From positions 1 through 50,444 of the forward strand of contig JAMPXP010000028.1 of NCBI GenBank assembly GCA_023701135.1: a stretch of 50,444 bases of DNA. The letters run 5' to 3'. The stretch comes from Desulfobacula sp. (GTDB lineage Bacteria; Desulfobacterota; Desulfobacteria; Desulfobacterales; Desulfobacteraceae). The notes under the pieces were generated by a model. The model was not told where the DNA came from. It saw nothing but the letters and a program-made list of their open reading frames with translations, and did not search any database. Position numbers and translations under genes: made by a program. Numbering within the stretch: the stretch's first letter is position 1; each line of letters starts with the position of its first letter. Positions 5,578 to 48,939 of this stretch are shown here, piece by piece.

Positions 5578-7209
5578 TTAATCCTCCTTGCCGTTACGCA
5601 TGAAAAACCGGCCCAGCCCATGCAGCAGAACAGCCACAAAGGCGCCGAGAACAGACACCCATCCGATGGTATCCACCAGGCGGAACCGGTCCCGGCCCGG
5701 CATATACAGGTCTGTGATTCCGGCCAGCCGGGAGGTTTCCCGGATGTGGCATTCCGTACAGGCCAGGGCGTTTTCCTTGGGCGCCACCATATGGGTGATG
5801 GGCATGGCATAGGTGGTTTCCACATAATCAAATTGGCCGGAATAGGGCAGACCTAAGGTTTTATTGCCCCGCTCGATGGCGTCGTTCATATCCAGGGTGG
5901 TCCAGAACCCCTTGGACCCTGACAGTATGGGGGCCAGAAGCTTGTTGTGGACCTTGTCATAGGGCTGTTTACCCCGGTGGATTTTAAAGGGAAAGATTCG
6001 GGTCTGGGGATCGGATTTATCCCCCACGGGTTGGCTGACCTTCACAATTTGTCCGGGATCAATAACATCATCGGCTGTGGTGCTGGTCAAAGACCCGTTG
6101 AACCGATAATATTCCGGGATCACGTTCTTTTCCCATTTGAATTCCCCTTTGATGGTCTTATACACGGGTTTCCCGAATTCGCCGTCTTCGGTGTAGGGTT
6201 TGCCGTCTTTCATCTTTCCCGTCTTGGACCAGTCCCACATCATCATGGTGGGATTCACCCGGGCAAAGCTGGGAATATGGCAGGCCTGGCAGGAAACCAC
6301 ATCGGTATGGTCATTCATCTTGGAATCATTTTTATGGGGCATGGCGCTGTGGCAGGACTCGCAGGTGATTTTCGGAGCCAGATCATCTTCAATCAGGCTT
6401 TTCCTGGACTCAACGGCAGGATTGGTATAAATCCGCCCGGCAATATTGTGCTCCGTGGTAGTATGACACCGGGTGCAGGTGAAATTTTTCCCGTCGGTTC
6501 CCATATGCACATCCAGCATGCGGTTGGGTTTTGTGAGAGAGGTGTCCAGATCCCCGTGTTTCACCCCGTCGCCGCCGCCGCCGGTAAAATGGCAGTCCCC
6601 GCAGCTCTTCCGGTCCGGGAAGGTCACCTGGGTGACGGCTTTTTTGATGTCCTGCTGAAGATCTTTGGCCATTTCATGGGCTTCCGGGTCTTCGTCCTTT
6701 AGAAAGGATTTGACATCGGTGAGGGCCTCTTCAAAATTAAACCCGGATGAATTGTGGCATTTCAGGCAATTGACCTCACCCTGGACTCCCTTTTTGTCCC
6801 AGCCGGGATGGCAGCTCAGACAACTTTTATCTTCCATGGCATTGCCGGAGATGCAGAAATTATTCACTGAAAACCCGGCCTTACCATAACGCAAATCCGT
6901 TTTATCCTCAGACGCCAGCCAGGTCCAGTGAATGGTCTTATGAAACTGGGTTGCAGCTTCCGAGTGGCAGGAGATGCAGGCCCGGGTGATCTCTTCCCCG
7001 GAGGTGAAATCCTTGTTCAAGGCCTCCATTTTTTTGTGGTCCGTGGTGGTCCACTGTTTACTGCCCTTGACGGCCTGCCTGGCAAGGCGTCTTCCCGGAG
7101 CGTCGTCACTGTTTTCCGGTGTGGCGGCAAAGGCCGGGGAAAGAAAGCATAAAAAGGCCGCGATAGCTGTTGCAGCCATTTTGCAACTGAATACGATTCT
7201 TTTTTTCAT
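5578..7209 (-). CDS. Octaheme c-type cytochrome, tetrathionate reductase (OTR) family
   Basis: A 543-residue exported protein with eight CxxCH haem sites: CISCH, CLSCH, CLKCH, CGDCH, CTRCH, CESCH, CQACH and CTECH. A Sec signal peptide covers about the first 28 residues (ending SPAFAA), and a single hydrophobic segment near the C-terminus (VSVLGAFVAVLLHGLG) anchors it to the outer face of the membrane. The spacing matches the Shewanella octaheme tetrathionate reductase family, whose members reduce tetrathionate, nitrite and hydroxylamine in vitro. The start at 7209 has GGAG six bases upstream. Neighbouring rhodanese genes favour a sulfur substrate, which is inference. Confidence 0.88.
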   Translation of the reverse strand: MKKRIVFSCKMAATAIAAFLCFLSPAFAATPENSDDAPGRRLARQAVKGSKQWTTTDHKKMEALNKDFTSGEEITRACISCHSEAATQFHKTIHWTWLASEDKTDLRYGKAGFSVNNFCISGNAMEDKSCLSCHPGWDKKGVQGEVNCLKCHNSSGFNFEEALTDVKSFLKDEDPEAHEMAKDLQQDIKKAVTQVTFPDRKSCGDCHFTGGGGDGVKHGDLDTSLTKPNRMLDVHMGTDGKNFTCTRCHTTTEHNIAGRIYTNPAVESRKSLIEDDLAPKITCESCHSAMPHKNDSKMNDHTDVVSCQACHIPSFARVNPTMMMWDWSKTGKMKDGKPYTEDGEFGKPVYKTIKGEFKWEKNVIPEYYRFNGSLTSTTADDVIDPGQIVKVSQPVGDKSDPQTRIFPFKIHRGKQPYDKVHNKLLAPILSGSKGFWTTLDMNDAIERGNKTLGLPYSGQFDYVETTYAMPITHMVAPKENALACTECHIRETSRLAGITDLYMPGRDRFRLVDTIGWVSVLGAFVAVLLHGLGRFFMRNGKED

Positions 7210-7660: not shown

Positions 7661-8791
7661 TCAGGATTTTTTGGGTTTTTTGATTTCGTATTGGCCGTCA
7701 CCTTTGAAGGTGATTCCAGCCTCCACATAGTACACTTCTTTTAAGGAATTTTTCAAGTCCTTTGTCATATAAAAAGCTTCTCCGCTCCGGGCGCCCGTGG
7801 TGCAGACAAAAACAACAGGCTTGTCTGTCGGAAGCTCGTTGATCTTTTTCTCAAGATTTCCCACCGGGATATTGACGGCGGTTTTAAATGATCCCTTGGC
7901 GAATTCATCGGGATCACGGACATCAACGATGACAATGGACTCGGGATTGTTAGCCAGGATGGAGACGAAACGGTCAAGGTCGATGGCACCTTCAACCCCG
8001 CCTGATTTTGCCGCCACGGCAGGGGCGGAACCGCCATAGAGTTTTTCCCATTCCGGGTAGCCAAGGCTGAACACGGACACATCGGTGTATCCCATCTCAA
8101 TGGCCTTTTTTGCCGATTTATGGCTCAACGGACAATCCAGCCCGCCGCAGTAAAAAACCACAGGGGTTTTGAGATCTCTCGGCAGTTTGCCCTTGAGTTC
8201 GTCAAACTGGGTGTCGGGGATATTGACGGCCGTGGGGACGTGCCCTTTGTCATATTTGGCCTGCTTTGGCCGGGAATCCACGATCAGGGCCTTGTTCTCG
8301 GAAATCATCAGGGCCACCTGCTCTGCGCTGACGGAAGGGTAATTGCCTTTCAGGGTAACCCATTCCGGATATCCTTTTGAATAGACCTTCACGTTTTTAT
8401 AGCCCAGGGCTTCGGCTTTCCGGGCTGAATTATGGCTGAGCTTGCAGGTTTCACCTTCGCAGTAAAAAATCAGAAGGGCGCTTTTGTCCTGGGGGAGGAG
8501 ATTGGTTTTCTGATCAAATTCTGAAAACGGGATACTGACGGCGCCGGGGATATGGCCCTGGATAAATTTTGTCTTATAGGGCCGTGAATCGATGAGCATG
8601 ACATTGGCGGGCATGGGGATGTCCATGTGGGCCTTGACGAACTCGGCATCCACAATGTCATGGAACATCCATGACCGGTCTTCGGTCTGGCTCTCTGCGG
8701 TTTTTGCTGTTTGGCCAGGCGTACATCCCGTCAGCAGCAAAAGCCCTGAGAGAAACACAAGAAGCATTATGTTTGTAAGATTGTTTTTCAT
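7661..8791 (-). CDS. Lipoprotein with three rhodanese domains
   Basis: A 376-residue protein. The lipobox LTGC places Cys23 as the lipidated residue, so it is tethered to a membrane, facing the periplasm. Three rhodanese-like domains follow (about 45-150, 155-255 and 265-365). The first two have FYCEGETCKLSH and FYCGGLDCPLSH with paired cysteines (111/116 and 215/220); the third has FVCTTGARS with Cys330 in the usual active loop. Rhodaneses move sulfane sulfur between thiols. AAGGAG precedes the start. It is the first gene of the octaheme cytochrome operon, about 90 bases downstream of the expected start point of a sigma-54 promoter. Confidence 0.88.
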   Translation of the reverse strand: MKNNLTNIMLLVFLSGLLLLTGCTPGQTAKTAESQTEDRSWMFHDIVDAEFVKAHMDIPMPANVMLIDSRPYKTKFIQGHIPGAVSIPFSEFDQKTNLLPQDKSALLIFYCEGETCKLSHNSARKAEALGYKNVKVYSKGYPEWVTLKGNYPSVSAEQVALMISENKALIVDSRPKQAKYDKGHVPTAVNIPDTQFDELKGKLPRDLKTPVVFYCGGLDCPLSHKSAKKAIEMGYTDVSVFSLGYPEWEKLYGGSAPAVAAKSGGVEGAIDLDRFVSILANNPESIVIVDVRDPDEFAKGSFKTAVNIPVGNLEKKINELPTDKPVVFVCTTGARSGEAFYMTKDLKNSLKEVYYVEAGITFKGDGQYEIKKPKKS

Positions 8792-8889
8792 GGGATCTCC
8801 TTTTATCATTAAGGTTTGATTTGTGAAGGCTGTCATTGTTTCCAAGTTTCCAGCGTTTTTCAGCAATGCCTTTTCAGCAACACTATTTT

Positions 8890-8907
8890 AGCAATGAGTG
8901 TGCCAGG
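8890..8907 (-). promoter_or_regulatory. Sigma-54 promoter for the octaheme cytochrome operon
   Basis: Read on the minus strand, TGGCACA-CTCA-TTGCT gives the -24 GG at 8904-8903 and the -12 GC at 8892-8891, exactly ten bases apart, as required for RpoN. Transcription would start near 8879, leaving an 88-base leader before the rhodanese gene. A sigma-54 activator is encoded divergently at 9068. Between them, A+T-rich repeats (GTTAAT and TTTAAAC motifs, about 8930-9055) could be its binding sites. Confidence 0.85.
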
Positions 8908-9067
8908 ATTAATCCCATGCTGAACTGTATGATTAACTATCTGAGTTTAAACAGTAAAACCATGACAGCCCCCAATCTTTTTTCAAGAATTTGAAAAAAG
9001 ATCAGTTGCATATATGTTAATTCATTGTTAATTTAACTGTAAACCATATTAACACCTTCGGAGGGTT

Positions 9068-28900: not shown

Positions 28901-29233
28901 ATGTATTTGGAGGAACTGGTCCAAATTTTTCAGAAAGGGATTCAAGCGCCTTTTTATTTTTCCTCGGAAACTTCCTTTCAGTTCGCCGAGGCTTTGGCTG
29001 CGGAAGGCTTCGCATTGACCGGGGAACCGGTTTTCAAGGCCATGGGCCGGGCAAAAAAAGCCTGGCAGGACCGGCACCAGGGCACAGGGGAAAGGGAAAA
29101 TCGGTATGTGGACCTTTGCGTTGACCAGCGCGATCCCTTTGAAAGCGTGGATACCCTTCTTTCCTCGGGCTTTGCCCGGAATGCCATCCGGGTTTTCAAA
29201 CCCTTGCTGGAAAACCGGGAGGAATTGCCATGA
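25931..29233 (+). CDS. recC: Exodeoxyribonuclease V gamma subunit
   Basis: About 1,100 residues. The N-terminus NIIKSNRMEILMQGL and QSRGMKQWISLKLAEALGVCAN match RecC, the DNA-end-binding scaffold that scans for Chi. Later motifs SIHACHSPMREAQVLKDLLL and IPFKIVVLMGMDETAFP are also RecC hallmarks. A TTG start at 25931 gives the family N-terminus, with AAGGGA upstream; an ATG at 25871 would add an unlikely stretch. The last four bases overlap recB (ATGA). Works in the cytoplasm on double-strand breaks and foreign linear DNA. Confidence 0.9.
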   Translation: MFNIIKSNRMEILMQGLASIPAEVGDHPLMPQWIAVQSRGMKQWISLKLAEALGVCANMRFVFPRPLVDELLSHFTAFDHQDETVDEDFFFWSVLKLVRENRSQKELSGIDAYLQEDGTGKRLLQVSRKIATLFDDYSVYRPDMLLDWQRGGRKESRQEPSAEWQAFLFQKMMETRPLDHLAARTQAFFQGFSKEKFNRDGLPSHISLFGISVLPELFVQVFERVASVMDIHIFLLTPSSRFFFDIRPDREVEKRAVKEGASPEVLFDEPVNPLLASLGASGIRFHAGLERFHYQEPFDDLFLDPIEEGISMLRVLQSDILNLYHRKESGETLPLAVDPFDTSVSIHACHSPMREAQVLKDLLLAEFEKNPDLAPHDIMVMMPDIEAYAPFIESVFSLETPLPFSISDRRKRSESEPLEAFLKVLALQGSRLEKTLVLDLLVSESIAGKFRISLEDITKIEQMADDAHILWGRDGEHRQSLGFEAYAENTWQFGLNRLFMGMAMPEGYDGLVQGILPCESFEGLELETLGKLAAFCHALFSGLAGLEGEKTLAAWTRVIRQLARSLLDENPETAEDLFFLMETLDELESGAKKAGFADSVSFDLVHSLLAQKLDLNISQGNFMSGNITFCNILPMRSIPFKIVVLMGMDETAFPKKVFSPGFNLMKKFPRPGDKNERNEDLYLFLETLLSAREKFIITYTGMSIRDNSLIPCSGAVSELMEVMDQSFVFPEGYSYRFFHPLHPFDLSYFNGAGPFFSYSGDNCRMAAALLGERREKWPFITIPDKEKPGGPVADISLDEILRFFKNPLEGFVKHGLNLTFKLLEEEKEDWEAFTVAGLDQYLLGSLLVEKEAESPHDRDLYPVFRAMGSLPPGRKGRLEYEKLMALADPLVREARKIAAITPLPALAAEIQGDGTRVFGRITHVRETGAYLIGFGRLNGARLLSAWIRHLFLNAAGPRDYPRQTFLLGRDPKGRKPVSIYRFPDLGSDGGMYLEELVQIFQKGIQAPFYFSSETSFQFAEALAAEGFALTGEPVFKAMGRAKKAWQDRHQGTGERENRYVDLCVDQRDPFESVDTLLSSGFARNAIRVFKPLLENREELP

Positions 29234-32200
29234 AAGCCCTGGACCCCTTTGATATGGATTTGACATTATCCACCCTCATTGAAGCCAGTGCCGGAACCGG
29301 GAAAACCCATACCATCACCACCCTTTATGGCCGCCTTGCGGCTGAAGGCTATCCCGTGGAATCCATCCTGGTGGTGACCTTTACGGAGGCGGCGGCCGCA
29401 GAGCTGAAGCTCAGGATCAGGTCAAGGCTTTCCCTGGCCTTAAAAACCCTGTCGGCCTCCGGCAGCAAAGAGGGCCCAACCGGGGACGATCTTTCGGCCT
29501 ATTTGAGTTGCCGGCCTGATCCTGCCCTGATCCAGAGACGGTTGAAACTGGCCCTCACCTGTTTTGACCAGGCCGCCATCATGACCATTCATTCCTTCTG
29601 CTTCAGGGTATTAAAGGAAAATGCCTTTGAAAGCCGGTCCCTTTTTGATATGGAACTCATGCCGGACCGGTCCGCGTTTTTACGGCAGGTGGGCCATGAT
29701 TTTTTCATGGGCCGGGTTGCCAATGAAGATCCCTTGTTCCTGAAATACCTGGACTTACAAAAGGTGACACCGGAGTGGTTTGTCGACAGGTTCAAGGGGG
29801 TTGTCTCCAGACCGGGGATTCTCATCAAACCCGCGCCCGAATCCGATAAAATTGAATTTGACCGTTACCGGGACACCATCCGAAAAATCAGGGAAGTCCT
29901 GGCCGTCCGGGAAAAGGAGATCGGTGATCTCATCCTGAACCATGGGGCCTTGGACAAACGAAGCTATACCAAACGAAATGTCCCGTCCTGGCTTTCCCAG
30001 GCCCGCCTGAAACTGGAACAGGAAGGGGACAACGCCCTGTTCATCATGGCCGAGGACGGGGACAGCCTGTATAAATTCACCCGGACCCGGATGGCGGAAA
30101 AAACCAAACCCGGAGAAAACCCGCCGGATCATGAATTTTTTGACCTCTGCCAAGACCTGCTGGCCTTTTACCAGGATTTTGATACGGGGCTGATCCGTCT
30201 GAAACGAGACTTTTTGTCCTTTTTCAGCACAGAGCTGGATAAAATGAAACGATCCCAGGGGGTCTGCTTTTTTGACGATCTCATCAACGACCTGGCCCAG
30301 GCCCTGGAAGGCGACGGGGCGGTCCTGCTTCAAGAATCGGTCCGCCGGACCTGGGCCGCCTGCCTCATCGATGAATTTCAGGACACGGACCCGGCCCAGT
30401 ATGATATTTTTTCAACGCTTTTTTTAACTCCGGGCACCCCCTTTTTCATGATCGGAGATCCCAAGCAGGCCATCTACGGCTTCAGGGGAGGAGATATTTT
30501 CGCCTATCTGAAGGCCTCGGCCCAAAGCGAACAGAAATTTACCCTTGAAAAAAATTACCGGTCTTCACCCATGCTGGTCAAGGCTGTGAATACTATTTTT
30601 ACGGCGGCGGAAAATCCCTTTTTATATGAGGATATTTCCTTTTTAAAGGTCGGTACTCCGGCCACGGCCAAAGATCTGTTGATGGAACACGATACCCCGG
30701 TGGCGCCCCTACAGTTCTGTTTCATCGAACGAGAAGACATGGCCCTGGACAAGGACGGCTATATCGGCCGGGAGACGGCGGAAAAATGGGTGCCGAAGAT
30801 TGTGGCCGAGGACATCCTGTCCCTTCTTCAATCCGGGAAGCGGCTCCTGGACAGAAAGGACCAACACAGGGAACCCAGGGCCGTCAGCCCCGGCGATATG
30901 GCGGTCCTGGTCCGGACCAATGCCCAGGCGGAACAGGTGCAAAGGGCCCTGTCTTTAAAGGGAATTCCGTCCTATCTTTCCAAAACCGGGTCTGTGTTCG
31001 ATTCCAAAGAGGCCCTGGCCCTTTATGACATTCTCTGGGCTGTGTATCAGCCCGGAAACAAGGGAAGTCTTCTGGCCGCCCTGGCAACCTCGGTGTTCGG
31101 GTTTTCCTCCGGGGATATGATGGCCCTGGATCAGGAGGAAGACCGGTTTTTCGAGTGGCAGGACCGGTTCAGGCAATACCGGACCCTATGGGAGACAAGG
31201 GGATTTGTTTCCATGATCATGGCCCTGTTTCATTCGGAACAGGCATTTTTAAGAAAAGAGGCCGGGCTGGACGAACGGGGGCTTACCAATTTTTACCACC
31301 TTGGGGAACTGGTTTCAAAGGCCTGTCTTGGGCAGCAGTTCTCGCCCCATTATCTCTTGAAATGGTATGGCCGGCAATTGTCGGAAACGGTTCGGGAGGA
31401 GTCTGAACTCAGGCTGGAAAGCGATAAAAAAGCCGTGGCCATTGTCACCCTTCATAAAAGCAAGGGCCTTGAATACCCGGTGGTGTATCTTCCCTTTCTC
31501 TGGGAAGGAAGCAAAAGACCGGCCCAGGAAGCCATCCTGTTCCATGACCCTGAAAACAACCATGATTTGACCCTGGATCTCGGGTCCGGGGACATGGAAA
31601 GGGCCCGGTCCTGTTTTGAAATGGAGGAAAGAGCTGAAAACAGGAGGCTTTTATATGTGGCCCTGACCCGGGCCTCGGCCCTGTGCCGCATCTTCTGGGG
31701 TGGATTCCGGTCCGTTGAAACCTCGGCCCTCGGCTCTCTTCTGCATCCCGGGGGATGCAAGGCGGATTCAGCCATGATAGAGGATCTGGAGAGGCTTTTG
31801 CCGGATTCGGAACACAGCATCCTGCTGGAAATGGCCGGCCGTGAATCCGGGGGGCGGTTCATGGCTCCGGCCCCGGAAAATCCGGATCTGGCTGCAAGAC
31901 TGATCCAAACAAGGGTCCTGCCTGCCTGGCGGATGTCCAGTTTTTCATCCCTGACCCATGCATCTTCCCGCGATTTGCCGGAGGACCGCCCGGTCATAGC
32001 CCCGGAGAAAGGGTCAAGACCGGTAACCCTGGCCATTTTTCCAAAGGGGGCCGGAACCGGGGATTTTTTCCATTCCATATTTGAAACCCTTGATTTTGCT
32101 GGAGACCCCAAAGCCATTCCAAAACTGGTTGAAGAAAAGGCGGGCAGGTCCGGTCTTTCAAGCCCCGGATTGCTTGAGACGGCAGGGCAGAGCATCAACG

Positions 32201-32745
32201 AGGTGCTTGGGACCCGACTCATCCAGGGGCCGGCCGGATTCCGCCTCAAGGACATCAGAAAACAGGACCGGATCAATGAAATGGAATTTGTCTTCCCGGT
32301 GAACCCGTTTCATACCTCAGCCCTGAAGAAAGCCTTTGAAGCCTCGACTTCCCCGGCAAAAGGCTATGCAAAACATCTATCCCGGCTTTCGACAGATGAA
32401 TTTCAAGGATTCATGAAAGGGTTCATCGATCTTGTGATTCAGCACCAGGGCAAATGGTATATCCTGGATTATAAAACCAATTTTCTGGGGGATACCTATG
32501 CCCATTATTCACAACAGAGCATGGCCGATGCCATGGCGGAACATCATTATTTCCTGCAATATTATCTCTATTTGGCGGCCCTGCACAAATACCTTGAATC
32601 CAGGATGACGTCCTATGCCTATGACACTCATTTCGGGGGAGTGCTCTATCTTTTTATCCGGGGCATGCACCCGGATTTGGGTCCGGAATCCGGGGTGTTT
32701 TTCCATCGCCCGTCCAAAAAAGCGTTGGATATTTTTTTGGGATAG
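29230..32745 (+). CDS. recB: Exodeoxyribonuclease V beta subunit
   Basis: A 1,171-residue superfamily I helicase-nuclease. Walker A ASAGTGKTHT (about 19-28), DEFQDTDPAQYDIF (near 380), IGDPKQAIYGFRGGD, TLHKSKGLEYPVVYLPF and LLYVALTRA make up the helicase motifs. The C-terminal nuclease has WYILDYKTN near residue 1,078 with the catalytic Asp and Lys. It forms a complex with RecC. Its start overlaps the recC stop. No recD follows: the next genes are hemerythrins. RecD may lie elsewhere or be absent. Confidence 0.93.
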   Translation: MKALDPFDMDLTLSTLIEASAGTGKTHTITTLYGRLAAEGYPVESILVVTFTEAAAAELKLRIRSRLSLALKTLSASGSKEGPTGDDLSAYLSCRPDPALIQRRLKLALTCFDQAAIMTIHSFCFRVLKENAFESRSLFDMELMPDRSAFLRQVGHDFFMGRVANEDPLFLKYLDLQKVTPEWFVDRFKGVVSRPGILIKPAPESDKIEFDRYRDTIRKIREVLAVREKEIGDLILNHGALDKRSYTKRNVPSWLSQARLKLEQEGDNALFIMAEDGDSLYKFTRTRMAEKTKPGENPPDHEFFDLCQDLLAFYQDFDTGLIRLKRDFLSFFSTELDKMKRSQGVCFFDDLINDLAQALEGDGAVLLQESVRRTWAACLIDEFQDTDPAQYDIFSTLFLTPGTPFFMIGDPKQAIYGFRGGDIFAYLKASAQSEQKFTLEKNYRSSPMLVKAVNTIFTAAENPFLYEDISFLKVGTPATAKDLLMEHDTPVAPLQFCFIEREDMALDKDGYIGRETAEKWVPKIVAEDILSLLQSGKRLLDRKDQHREPRAVSPGDMAVLVRTNAQAEQVQRALSLKGIPSYLSKTGSVFDSKEALALYDILWAVYQPGNKGSLLAALATSVFGFSSGDMMALDQEEDRFFEWQDRFRQYRTLWETRGFVSMIMALFHSEQAFLRKEAGLDERGLTNFYHLGELVSKACLGQQFSPHYLLKWYGRQLSETVREESELRLESDKKAVAIVTLHKSKGLEYPVVYLPFLWEGSKRPAQEAILFHDPENNHDLTLDLGSGDMERARSCFEMEERAENRRLLYVALTRASALCRIFWGGFRSVETSALGSLLHPGGCKADSAMIEDLERLLPDSEHSILLEMAGRESGGRFMAPAPENPDLAARLIQTRVLPAWRMSSFSSLTHASSRDLPEDRPVIAPEKGSRPVTLAIFPKGAGTGDFFHSIFETLDFAGDPKAIPKLVEEKAGRSGLSSPGLLETAGQSINEVLGTRLIQGPAGFRLKDIRKQDRINEMEFVFPVNPFHTSALKKAFEASTSPAKGYAKHLSRLSTDEFQGFMKGFIDLVIQHQGKWYILDYKTNFLGDTYAHYSQQSMADAMAEHHYFLQYYLYLAALHKYLESRMTSYAYDTHFGGVLYLFIRGMHPDLGPESGVFFHRPSKKALDIFLG

Positions 32746-34181: not shown

Positions 34182-34257
34182 AAGGCCTCCTTTTTTACGA
34201 AAGCGGATTTGTTCGCTGGAAGTTCTCCACAAGATTCAGTATAGGGGATTTATTGTG

Positions 34258-34310
34258 TTTTGTTAAGGGGTTTTTTGAGCTTGACATTGACTTCTTTGCC
34301 GGGATAGACA
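34258..34310 (+). promoter_or_regulatory. Putative promoter of the AAA/DUF4276 pair, part of a repeated element
   Basis: TTGACA (34281-34286) with TAGACA (34305-34310) after 18 bases forms a sigma-70-like promoter about 55 bases before the ATPase start. The preceding stretch (TTTGTTAAG, T-run, GA, CTTGACATTG) recurs almost unchanged at 38838, upstream of the CorA gene. Confidence 0.5.
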
Positions 34311-34365: not shown

Positions 34366-35595
34366 ATGGCTGTCATTGAAGGGTTCAGGGTGCAGAACTA
34401 TCGTGCGCTCCGCGATGTGACGCTGGGTAAGCTTTCCAATCTGCAAAAAGCGGAAGAGCTGTCCCCTTTTACGATCGTGATCGGCAAGAACGGAGTAGGC
34501 AAAAGCAGCCTGTTTGATGCCTTTGGGTTTGTGGCCGATTGTTTATCTGCCGATGTGGAAACCGCCTGTGACATGAAACAACGGGGCGGGTTTGAACGCC
34601 TTCGGTCAATGGGGGTGGACGAACCCATCCGGTTTGAAATCTATTACCGGGAAGCCCCTAAGGAGAGGCCCATCACCTATGAGTTGTCTATTGCGATAGA
34701 TGCTTCATCCCGGCCCTTTGTAGAGTCGGAGGTGCTTAAGCAGCGACGGAAAGGCCAGAAGCACGGGCAGCCGTTTCCATTCCTTCGCCTGCATCACGGA
34801 AAGGGCACGGTCTGGGCGGGAGAGGAAGCGGTAGAAGCCAAAGGTGAGGAGGATCGTGCCCGGATGTCCGTGGAACTGACAGATACCCGGCAGTTGGGTA
34901 TCGCCACTTTGGGAACGCTCAAGGAACATCCGCGCATCAAACGATTCCGGGATTTTTTGAAAGGGTGGTACCTATCCTATTTTTATCCGGATGCAGCCCG
35001 CAGTTTGCCGGGTGCCGGTCCGCAGCGGCATTTGAATATTCACGGAGATAATATCGGCAATGTGGTCCAGTTCATGGAGCGGGAACACAAGGCCAGATTC
35101 AGAGCCATCCTTGACCGCATTGCGACCAAGATCCCCGGAATAGCCAGTATTGACACCCATGTGACGGAAGACAAGCGGGTCTTGCTCCGTTTCAATGACG
35201 GTGCGTTTCGAGATCCGTTTTTTGCCCAGCAGATGTCCGACGGCACACTCAAGATGTTTGCGTATCTTTTGCTGTTGGAAGATCCTGAACCACCTCCCTT
35301 TATTTGCATTGAGGAACCGGAAAACGGACTTTACCACAAACTGTTGGAGGCCCTGGCCCAGGAGTTCCGGGTCCATGCCACTGGGAGGAAAAATGCCCCG
35401 CAGATTTTTGTGACCACACATCAGCCCTATTTTGTTGATGCCCTGTCCCCCAAGGAAGTCTGGGTCCTTGAAAAAGGAGAGGATGGGTATTCCAGAATAC
35501 ACCGGGTTTCCGAACTGGATGATGTGAAAAATCTCGTGGATGAGGGGCTGCCCCTGGGTGGCCTCTGGTACAGTGATTATCTCGATGCGAGGTAA
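34366..35595 (+). CDS. AAA-type ATPase, OLD/RecF-like, partner of DUF4276
   Basis: A 409-residue ATPase of the AAA_21 type. FRVQNYRALRDV starts the ABC-like fold; Walker A is GKNGVGKSS (about 40-48). QQMSDGTLKMFAYLLLLEDPEPP provides the signature and lead-in to Walker B (FICIEEPENGLY), and VTTHQPYFVD is the switch region. There is no internal TOPRIM or coiled-coil insertion of full length. It is followed 2 bp later by a DUF4276 gene, so the two probably make one complex, as in OLD-type and PARIS-type pairs where an ATPase holds a nuclease. AAGGAG precedes the start. A role in defence is inferred. Confidence 0.82.
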   Translation: MAVIEGFRVQNYRALRDVTLGKLSNLQKAEELSPFTIVIGKNGVGKSSLFDAFGFVADCLSADVETACDMKQRGGFERLRSMGVDEPIRFEIYYREAPKERPITYELSIAIDASSRPFVESEVLKQRRKGQKHGQPFPFLRLHHGKGTVWAGEEAVEAKGEEDRARMSVELTDTRQLGIATLGTLKEHPRIKRFRDFLKGWYLSYFYPDAARSLPGAGPQRHLNIHGDNIGNVVQFMEREHKARFRAILDRIATKIPGIASIDTHVTEDKRVLLRFNDGAFRDPFFAQQMSDGTLKMFAYLLLLEDPEPPPFICIEEPENGLYHKLLEALAQEFRVHATGRKNAPQIFVTTHQPYFVDALSPKEVWVLEKGEDGYSRIHRVSELDDVKNLVDEGLPLGGLWYSDYLDAR

Positions 35596-35597
35596 CT

Positions 35598-36254
35598 ATG
35601 CATATTGAGATACTGGTGGAGGACAGCTCAGGGGAAGAATTGCTTAAGGCTTTGTTGCCGGGGATTTTGGGACCGCAGGCCCATCCCCATACCTGGCGGA
35701 TGCACTCCTACAAAGGAATCGGCCGAATCCCCCGGAATCTATTGAAAAAAGCGGATCCCTCCAAGAGAATGCTGCTGGATCAGTTACCAAGGCTGCTGCG
35801 TGGTTATGGGAAGACTCCCGGTATTGATGCGGTGGTTATTGTTTTAGACAGTGATACAAGGGATTGTGTGGGTTTTCTTAAAGAACTGAAAGCAGTTGCG
35901 GATGACTGCGGTTCTCTTTACAACAATATAATGTTCAGGCTGGCTATAGAAGAAATTGAAGCCTGGTATTTTGGTGACCGAGACGCCTTGTTGTCTGCAT
36001 ACCCAAAAGCCAAACCCGATGTTCTTGGGCGATATGTGCAAGACAGTATATGCGGGACTTGGGAATTACTTGCCGATGCAATATTCGAGGGTGGATCAGC
36101 GGTGATCCGGACATGCGGCTGGCCTCTTCCGGGACAAGTGAAGCATGAATGGGCTAAAAAAATTGGGCCGGTTATGGACCCGGACAGAAACCTCTCTCCC
36201 AGTTTTAAAAAATTCAAGGACGGTTTGCGCCGGCTGACCGTTTCGGTTAGATAA
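35598..36254 (+). CDS. DUF4276 protein with TOPRIM-like acidic residues
   Basis: A 218-residue protein of the DUF4276 family. ILVEDSSGEELL has Glu8 and Asp9, VVIVLDSDTRDC has Asp84 and Asp86, and FRLAIEEIEAWYFGD has Glu118, Glu119 and Glu121. This Glu / Asp-x-Asp order resembles TOPRIM nucleases, though the family's activity is unproven. NLSPSFKKFKDGLRRL ends the domain as in relatives. GAGG at the end of the ATPase gene serves as its ribosome-binding site. It probably supplies a nucleolytic or metal-dependent activity to the ATPase. RloB and AriB proteins are possible functional counterparts. Confidence 0.8.
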   Translation: MHIEILVEDSSGEELLKALLPGILGPQAHPHTWRMHSYKGIGRIPRNLLKKADPSKRMLLDQLPRLLRGYGKTPGIDAVVIVLDSDTRDCVGFLKELKAVADDCGSLYNNIMFRLAIEEIEAWYFGDRDALLSAYPKAKPDVLGRYVQDSICGTWELLADAIFEGGSAVIRTCGWPLPGQVKHEWAKKIGPVMDPDRNLSPSFKKFKDGLRRLTVSVR

Positions 36255-38822: not shown

Positions 38823-38837
38823 GTGAGAACCCTTGCT

Positions 38838-38886
38838 TTGTTAAGCGATTTTTGAACTTGACATTGTATTATTCGAGGAATAGAGA
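38838..38886 (+). promoter_or_regulatory. Putative promoter of corA, second copy of a repeated element
   Basis: TTGACA (38858-38863), a 17-base spacer and TAGAGA (38881-38886) stand about 48 bases before the CorA start. The upstream segment matches that at 34258-34290 at about 26 of 30 positions, in the same orientation. Confidence 0.5.
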
Positions 38887-38933
38887 AGTGTCATAGAAAA
38901 ATCAAGGCGATTCAGAAAACGGAGGCACACAGG

Positions 38934-48135: not shown

Positions 48136-48939
48136 CTATTTCTTTTTGGCCGGGGCCTGTTTCTGGGATTTGGAAGACGTCTTCTTCTTGGATTTGGAGG
48201 AGGTCTGCTTTTTGGGCTTGGCCGCGGCCTTCTTTTTTGTTTCAGAAACCGCCGGTTTCTGAGGTTCCGTCACCGCCGGTTTTTGAGACTCGGAGGGATG
48301 GTCGATGTGATACTGCTTTTTATCTGCAAGGGCCTGGGCTTCCGTCAGTTGCAGGGGTGTAAGTCCCTTGGCAATACTCTCTTTCAGTTCCCTTGTCTTT
48401 TCGTGTTCCTGGGCCGCCGTCAAACTCAACCAGACATAGGCCTGTTTTAAATCCTGAACCACCCCTTTGCCCTGGCCGTACATCATTCCAAGATTATATT
48501 GAGCATAGGCATTTCCCTGTTCGGCCGCTTTTTCAAACCAGTTTACCGCCTGCCGGTAATCCCGGGGAACTCCCTGATTCTCAATATACATGGTGCCGAG
48601 ATTGACCTGGGCCTTGTCAAATCCCTGTTCGGCCGCTTTTTCATACCAGTGTGCAGCCTGCTGATAATCCTGGGGCACGCCCTTGCCCTGGTCATACATC
48701 AGCCCGAGATTGTATTGGGCATCTACCTTTCCCTGGGCCGCCGCCTTTTCAAACCAGAAAAAGGCCTCCTTATAATCCTGCTCAATGTCCGAACCCTGGG
48801 TATACATCAGCCCAAGATGGTGTTGGGCCTCGGCATCCCCCTCTCCCGCCTTTTTCAAGGCGTCTTCAAACGGATCACAGAAAACCGTGGCAGCACCAAA
48901 CAGAATTATCATTAAGGCCGGCAAAACCTTTTTCATCAA
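48136..48939 (-). CDS. Sel1-repeat (TPR-like) exported protein with basic tail
   Basis: A 267-residue protein. A signal peptide (KVLPALMIILFGAATVFC) is followed by four Sel1 repeats (about 30-175), such as AQYNLGLMYDQGKGVPQDYQQAAHWYEKAAEQG, which form a helical scaffold for protein contacts. The last 40 residues are nearly all Lys, Ser, Thr, Ala and Pro, suggesting a flexible tail that could bind anionic polymers. Function unknown. 48940-49113 holds no gene. Confidence 0.85.
   Translation of the reverse strand: MMKKVLPALMIILFGAATVFCDPFEDALKKAGEGDAEAQHHLGLMYTQGSDIEQDYKEAFFWFEKAAAQGKVDAQYNLGLMYDQGKGVPQDYQQAAHWYEKAAEQGFDKAQVNLGTMYIENQGVPRDYRQAVNWFEKAAEQGNAYAQYNLGMMYGQGKGVVQDLKQAYVWLSLTAAQEHEKTRELKESIAKGLTPLQLTEAQALADKKQYHIDHPSESQKPAVTEPQKPAVSETKKKAAAKPKKQTSSKSKKKTSSKSQKQAPAKKK

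Follow-up and report, generated by a model that had tools for sequence, protein, structure and literature searches.

A Desulfobacula ATPase-DUF4276 gene pair of candidate system HEC-01 reads as a probable split OLD-type defence module

What do an ATPase and a protein of unknown function do together when their genes stand side by side among ordinary genes? The question is raised by positions 34366 to 36254 of a 50,444-nucleotide stretch of Desulfobacula sp. DNA (contig JAMPXP010000028.1 of assembly GCA_023701135.1; hereafter the window), where an AAA_21 ATPase gene is followed by a DUF4276 gene. An earlier interpretation made from the letters alone (the sequence-only reading) had proposed a split OLD-type defence module. 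We found that the pair belongs to HEC-01 (Hma-embedded candidate 01), a catalogued candidate anti-virus system of PADLOC-DB. Most likely, the pair is a mobile two-component anti-phage module of this candidate system, in which an OLD/SMC-like ABC ATPase acts as the sensor and the DUF4276 protein as a stand-alone OLD-type TOPRIM nuclease. The basis for this reading is a set of intact genes, near-obligate pairing, patchy cross-phylum spread, defence-gene company, a predicted TOPRIM fold, and an invariant set of proposed catalytic residues.

Both genes are intact open reading frames (ORFs) on the forward strand. The first (34366 to 35595) encodes a 409-amino-acid ABC/AAA_21 ATPase, the predicted sensor or gatekeeper, and the second (35598 to 36254) encodes a 218-amino-acid DUF4276 protein, the predicted TOPRIM nuclease effector; they lie head to tail in different frames, with the 2-bp gap noted earlier. 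PADLOC models matched the ATPase as HEC-01A (PDLC04182, 3.2e-193, residues 1 to 408) and the DUF4276 protein as HEC-01B (PDLC04205, 3e-90, residues 1 to 212). PDLC04144, filed as HEC-01B, also matched the ATPase (2.8e-100); the A and B labels of PDLC04143 and PDLC04144 look swapped, as the "A" model matches the DUF4276 protein and the "B" model the ATPase. The PADLOC AbiLi model matched the ATPase at 1.3e-26, and NCBIfam gave only matches far under cut-offs (e.g., MAD3, retron Eco8, and PtuA, the last with 20.6 of 500 bits). For the second protein, Pfam returned DUF4276 (33.8 bits; cut-off, 30.2) and no other family, and NCBIfam returned no match at E values up to 1.

Conservation was assessed in 81 loci, comprising the best 80 of 209 relatives from a species-genome scan and one viral contig, a sample biased to close relatives of the query. 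The ATPase alignment held 74 proteins, from the window and 73 of the 81 loci, with 8 truncated or broken ones left out. In Walker A (GKNGVGKS, residues 40 to 47; 34483 to 34506), G40, N42, G43, G45, and K46 were identical in 74/74 and S47 in 73, while the ABC signature-like SDGT (residues 291 to 294; 35236 to 35247) and the switch histidine H352 of TTHQPYF (35419 to 35421) were identical in all 74. Walker B (FICIEE, residues 312 to 317; 35299 to 35316) kept E316 in 74/74 and E317 in 73/74. The complete Walker motifs described in the sequence-only reading were thus borne out, together with the AAA_21 assignment (5.8e-37). A structure model of the ATPase, built from the window protein and 58 of the 73 eligible locus proteins, had a predicted local distance difference test score (pLDDT) of 79.2 and is less sure. 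With this model, Foldseek retrieved full-length OLD nuclease 6p74 first (E 4.8e-11), followed by Septu/retron PtuA and GajA, at modest query TM-scores of about 0.4 to 0.5. VIA-align 2 scored SMC/Rad50 heads up to 20.1, slightly above OLD at 18.6; fold comparison of the model does not tell defence from repair.

The model of the DUF4276 protein has a TOPRIM topology, with strands at residues 2 to 8, 31 to 38, 78 to 84, and 111 to 116 and helices in between. VIA-align 2 placed OLD nuclease entries at ranks 1, 2, 4, and 5, the four entries being two proteins, and its best alignments fell on the TOPRIM regions of class 2 OLD proteins. When the model was searched against the PDB with Foldseek, no match fell below E 0.001, and the highest-placed hits included a small GTPase, WrbA, and lumazine synthases. 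A profile search with 70 DUF4276 sequences brought up no PDB entry that is credible as a relative (best E, 0.45). We therefore base the TOPRIM assignment on VIA-align 2, the topology, and the residues described below, and not on Foldseek or the profile search. A relationship between DUF4276 and TOPRIM folds is upheld on the former grounds but not by Foldseek. Taken with the HEC-01 model matches and with OLD 6p74 at the top of the ATPase search, the lead of OLD entries in VIA-align 2 supports the earlier proposal of a split OLD-type module.

A DUF4276 alignment of 77 proteins was then read for candidate active-site residues; it combined the window with 76 of the 81 loci, and L135, L137, L164, L194, and L208 were excluded because their proteins were broken, incomplete, or began at a position other than residue 1. 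E8, D84, D86, E118, E119, E121, and K182 were each invariant (77/77), in keeping with the Glu/Asp-x-Asp/Glu set in TOPRIM-like order that had been recognized before. E8 (35619 to 35621), the TOPRIM Glu at the end of strand 1, was also kept in all of six distant relatives at about 25 to 35% identity. The TOPRIM DxD, D84-x-D86 (35847 to 35855), ends strand 3 and was intact in five of these six, L010 having D-x-N. E119-x-E121 (35952 to 35960), after strand 4, and K182 (36141 to 36143), in the C-terminal helical part, were present in 6/6. In the OLD nuclease BpOLD, E400, D455, and D457 serve metal A and E404, T506, and E508 serve metal B, with K562 in addition; single substitutions were tolerated, and combinations abolished cutting (PMC6755086). 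We propose that E8, D84, D86, E119, E121, and K182 pair with BpOLD E400, D455, D457, T506, E508, and K562, a pairing taken from order and invariance and not from coordinate superposition. The DUF4276 protein would then hold a two-metal site, with E8, D84, and D86 for one metal, E119 and E121 for the other, and K182 as the catalytic lysine. VIA-align puts model residue 1 on BpOLD 393, and hence E8 on or next to E400. BpOLD E404 has no obvious counterpart, as residue 12, given by the VIA-align offset, is Gly in 77/77; the nearby acid D9 could be a stand-in.

The two genes are almost always paired. The ATPase gene lies directly upstream of the DUF4276 gene in 80 of the 81 loci, the other one (L194) beginning at a contig edge. 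Genus and class searches showed an ATPase within about 1.5 kb beside the match in 33 of 36 loci (34 places); of the remaining three, L091 shows it in a wider stretch (L125), and L092 and L094 do not within the DNA examined. At 8072 to 9914 of L125, about 1.8 kb separates two parts of the DUF4276 match. ATPase and DUF4276 distances correlated across 72 loci (Pearson, 0.71), as expected for any co-travelling pair. By record titles, HEC-01-like pairs occur in at least 13 phyla. On the ATPase tree, the 13 phylum labels need 23 changes (minimum possible, 12), yet clustering persists: shuffled labels need 36.9 changes on average, and 0/200 shuffles came as low. The tree was made by a quick method with 26 of 70 inner branches open, and the extra changes do not prove transfer. 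In this tree, the window copy branches with a Desulfobacterium copy (94% identity), and both fall in a supported group that also contains Desulfocapsa, Chlorobiota, and other copies. Among congeners, the versions in G001, G002, and G005 are only 64 to 66% identical to the window copy, and that in G013 is 98% identical over residues 262 to 409. The DUF4276 gene of G013, the nearest congener, shifts frame near its C-terminus (L103, 5089 to 5217), about 1 kb from the contig end, which may be real or an assembly error.

The presence of the pair is patchy: it was found in 4 of 25 congeners and, in the class search, in 38/389 genomes and 28/148 genera, the own genome included. Genomes at least 90% complete with little contamination gave 7/37 in the congener search and 26/201 in the class search; therefore, incomplete assemblies do not explain the patchy presence. 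Mobile-element records matched at E 1e-5 were only four plasmids and one phage, besides the one viral contig. In G005, a decayed, internally deleted second copy was seen at about 6590 to 7136 of L104 (G005:C1), with ATPase residues 1 to 117 running into DUF4276 pieces; a fuller copy, cut by the contig end, lies on another contig. A DNA-repair or housekeeping ATPase-nuclease, the role that ATPase fold comparison could not separate from defence, is very improbable for a pair carried by so few congeners and class genomes, with a decayed copy in G005 and with phyla interleaved in the tree.

To examine the genomic company of the pair, we compared near and far proteins in the same loci. The near set held 137 proteins (the closest ORF on either side, at most 1.5 kb away, called by a simple method and taken up to residue 360), leaving out L129, L135, L138, and L189 as duplicate or cut short and L194 as having no ATPase; the far control set held 136 proteins more than 6.5 kb off. 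At PADLOC E 1e-15, the leading near models were a type I restriction enzyme (7), type III methylase (5), HmaB (3), MAD3-like and second HEC-01-like ATPases (3), and NsnB of Menshen (2), and the leading far models were glycogen-branching enzyme (4), PtuA and DndB (2 each), and then single methylases and others. These are the first 25 of 145 near and 104 far families; several models can match one protein, and the counts give no overall rate or test. In L116, the gene order is HmaA-ATPase-DUF4276-HmaB-HmaC, and in L199, HmaA is directly upstream of the pair. Co-occurrence of the pair and closeness to defence genes, both named as checks in the sequence-only reading, were observed, the latter as restriction and Hma models among near neighbours.

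Such company, and the Hma nesting in L116, would also fit a role as an accessory to the restriction or Hma systems nearby, on which the pair would depend; lone copies such as that of the window would then be strays. We judge this quite unlikely. Among the matches listed, no single partner model exceeded 7 of the 137 neighbours. In addition, the pair lies between an antiterminator gene and lysis genes in a Rahnella plasmid prophage and between the type IV secretion system side and the relaxase gene on a conjugative Pseudomonas plasmid, and the plasmid and prophage copies examined have no adjoining Hma or restriction genes. Furthermore, NG86 dN/dS ratios (nonsynonymous to synonymous substitution rates) against the nearest relative were 0.036 for the ATPase and 0.054 for the DUF4276 protein, with dS values (about 1.0 and 1.9, respectively) near saturation; the window and L129 copies, neither with an adjoining restriction or Hma partner, are under strong purifying selection relative to each other.

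How does the pair compare with known systems? Both window proteins match HEC-01 models, their genes are adjacent, and a relative is Hma-embedded, but the window copy has no Hma alongside. Like the pair as read here, PARIS is made of two genes, an ABC ATPase and a TOPRIM effector with a two-metal site (PMC12409363), and is defined by an ATPase hexamer that holds the effector and releases it on a trigger; no AriB model was among the 11 PADLOC families matching the DUF4276 protein at E up to 1, the presence of such a model in the library being unchecked. OLD nucleases (class 1, GajA of class 2, and retron-linked class 3) share the ATPase class by Foldseek and the E/DxD/E/K order, whereas in the window the ATPase and TOPRIM are on two chains, E404 has no obvious match, and no GajB helicase or retron is attached. 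In contrast to Gabija, the pair is followed not by a GajB UvrD-like helicase but by a phosphorylase gene; a UvrD-domain protein (29230 to 32745) is encoded upstream, with three genes between. AbiL (AbiLi ATPase plus AbiLii) and RloB-linked pairs resemble the gene pair through the AbiLi match, and RloB/AbiLii is related to the OLD TOPRIM (PMC10440598); neither name appeared among Pfam or PADLOC matches of the DUF4276 protein, in libraries unchecked for these models. WonAB/PD-T4-4 is likewise a two-gene OLD-type ABC ATPase and nuclease (PMC12137116), but WonB is predicted to be PD-(D/E)xK and the window effector model is TOPRIM. Finally, PtuA of Septu/retron PtuAB ranks high among the structures that Foldseek matched to the ATPase, but PtuB is an HNH nuclease, and Pfam, read at E up to 1, gave nothing of the HNH kind for the DUF4276 protein.

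By analogy, the best reading for the HEC-01 pair is the restrained-nuclease logic of PARIS, WonAB, and AAA/TOPRIM_OLD pairs. In PARIS, the TOPRIM tRNase AriB is restrained by the ATPase AriA until AriA encounters a phage protein and lets it go (PMC12409363); WonAB joins an OLD-type ATPase to a different nuclease and acts by abortive infection, for which both genes are needed (PMC12137116); and in Escherichia coli, AAA plus TOPRIM_OLD pairs taken from other bacteria acted as neutraliser and toxin, although AF2 predicted no interface between the partners that was convincing (PMC10440598). In the uninfected cell, an oligomer of the window ATPase would keep the DUF4276 nuclease inactive. A phage protein or DNA event would alter the ATPase, the presumed infection sensor, and the nuclease, freed or switched on, would cut nucleic acid, either host tRNA (the PARIS target) or DNA (the target of OLD and Gabija), so that the phage would be halted while the cell is sacrificed. 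The neutralising AAA partner just mentioned, the strict pairing, and the presence on plasmids would also suit a toxin-antitoxin pair, with DUF4276 as the toxin and the ATPase as neutraliser, whose main role is self-maintenance and for which phage defence is secondary or absent. Although this reading overlaps with defence, as a PARIS-like system acts as toxin and keeper, we regard it as unlikely: nesting inside Hma, adjoining restriction genes, and the cargo position in a prophage point to defence.

Annotation software already calls HEC-01-like pairs, but we found no mechanism for HEC-01 in print, in a search without preprints and most subscription papers, so that a validated HEC-01 may exist. 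Within the same literature, "DUF4276" and "PF14103" occurred in no paper; HEC-01 was listed among the systems of Desulfovibrio piger in one paper, and its remaining mentions concern other subjects by title. A 2026 survey of archaeal immunity reports antiviral activity for several Hma-embedded candidates, HEC-06 included (PMC12988326), and is not among the papers containing "HEC-01". The DefensePredictor paper does not mention TOPRIM, HEC, DUF42, or AAA_21. With DUF4276 placed in the OLD-type TOPRIM group and its likely catalytic residues named, what was a domain of unknown function now carries a testable prediction, namely, a metal-dependent nuclease kept by its ATPase.

Is the pair mobile? 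Congener G020 has about 1.1 kb, with a semialdehyde-dehydrogenase-family gene, between its GNAT gene and its regulator/TRAP genes; of the window genes, those for the ATPase, DUF4276, phosphorylase, and CorA are missing there. The site is therefore variable, but it does not offer a clean case in which the pair alone is absent. Shortly before the ATPase gene, the window has a short direct repeat (34256 to 34293, plus strand) that is 84% identical to 8672 to 8708 of L107, from Desulfobacterium SW.3.97 (E 8e-4; L107 and L129 are the same locus). A right element (38832 to 38917, plus strand) is an 86-bp stretch 81% identical to L107 8670 to 8755, the repeat itself being 38832 to 38870. The two window repeats are 85% identical (E 1.8e-4 in a 3-kb by 3-kb comparison) and align with a score of 43, compared with at most 26 in 500 letter shuffles of stretches picked beforehand by eye; the pair of repeats did not appear in a whole-window self-comparison at E 0.01, and the right repeat was in no other of the 26 genus genomes. 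In L107, the gene pair, without the phosphorylase, stands between two 37-bp direct repeats that are 92% identical (6610 to 6646, corresponding to window 34256 to 34293, and 8672 to 8708). Short direct repeats therefore flank the pair in members of two bacterial families. As a lead, this suggests that the pair is a cassette whose ends are defined and which, in the window, also encloses the phosphorylase gene.

We also asked whether flanking repeats mark the family in general, which was not established. A direct repeat at E 1e-4 was found in 10 of 89 rows (8 distinct loci, as L107 equals L129 and L187 and L189 are near-identical); for mock units placed in these loci, the figure was 7 of 278. Fisher p was 0.013 for 8/89 and 0.09 for 6/88 without L192 (repeat at contig end) and L161, the denominators being rows and not distinct loci; the survey is unconvincing, and the window's own repeats (E 1.8e-4) miss its cut. 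It is possible, if doubtful, that DUF4276/HEC-01 forms a separate two-gene split-OLD lineage with its own TOPRIM variant (no E404 counterpart and further invariant residues), also moving as a bare, repeat-bounded cassette of about 2 kb without its own recombinase. In L107, the pair also lies between two copies of an outer direct repeat of about 150 bp (6108 to 6274 and 8757 to 8908). This is a dispersed genomic repeat, a 251-bp query containing it having 31 matches in G117 and 21 in G198, the cassette's own stretches included, and it says little about the cassette. L118 is a second locus with long direct repeats around the pair (193 bp, 94% identical), at -710 to -518 on the upstream side and +121 to +313 on the downstream side.

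In the window, the neighbours of the pair are ordinary genes by a Pfam scan of the ORFs: upstream are the UvrD-domain protein, two hemerythrins, and a GNAT acetyltransferase, and downstream are a carbohydrate (glycogen) phosphorylase (PF00343; 36327 to 38822, plus strand), lying between the pair and the right repeat, a CorA transporter, a cupin/helix-turn-helix regulator, and a TRAP transporter subunit. The phosphorylase gene is probably a passenger or bystander; as a functional partner it was set aside, since the L107 pair has no phosphorylase gene next to it and other copies differ in their neighbours. The weakest part of the sequence-only reading was a promoter of the pair's own: a consensus scan gave 4 promoter-like sites versus 2.1 +/- 1.4 in shuffles, which is within chance. 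Elsewhere in the window, direct repeats that are 68 to 78% identical occur within 48408 to 48858; their offsets are 108, 216, and about 324 bp.
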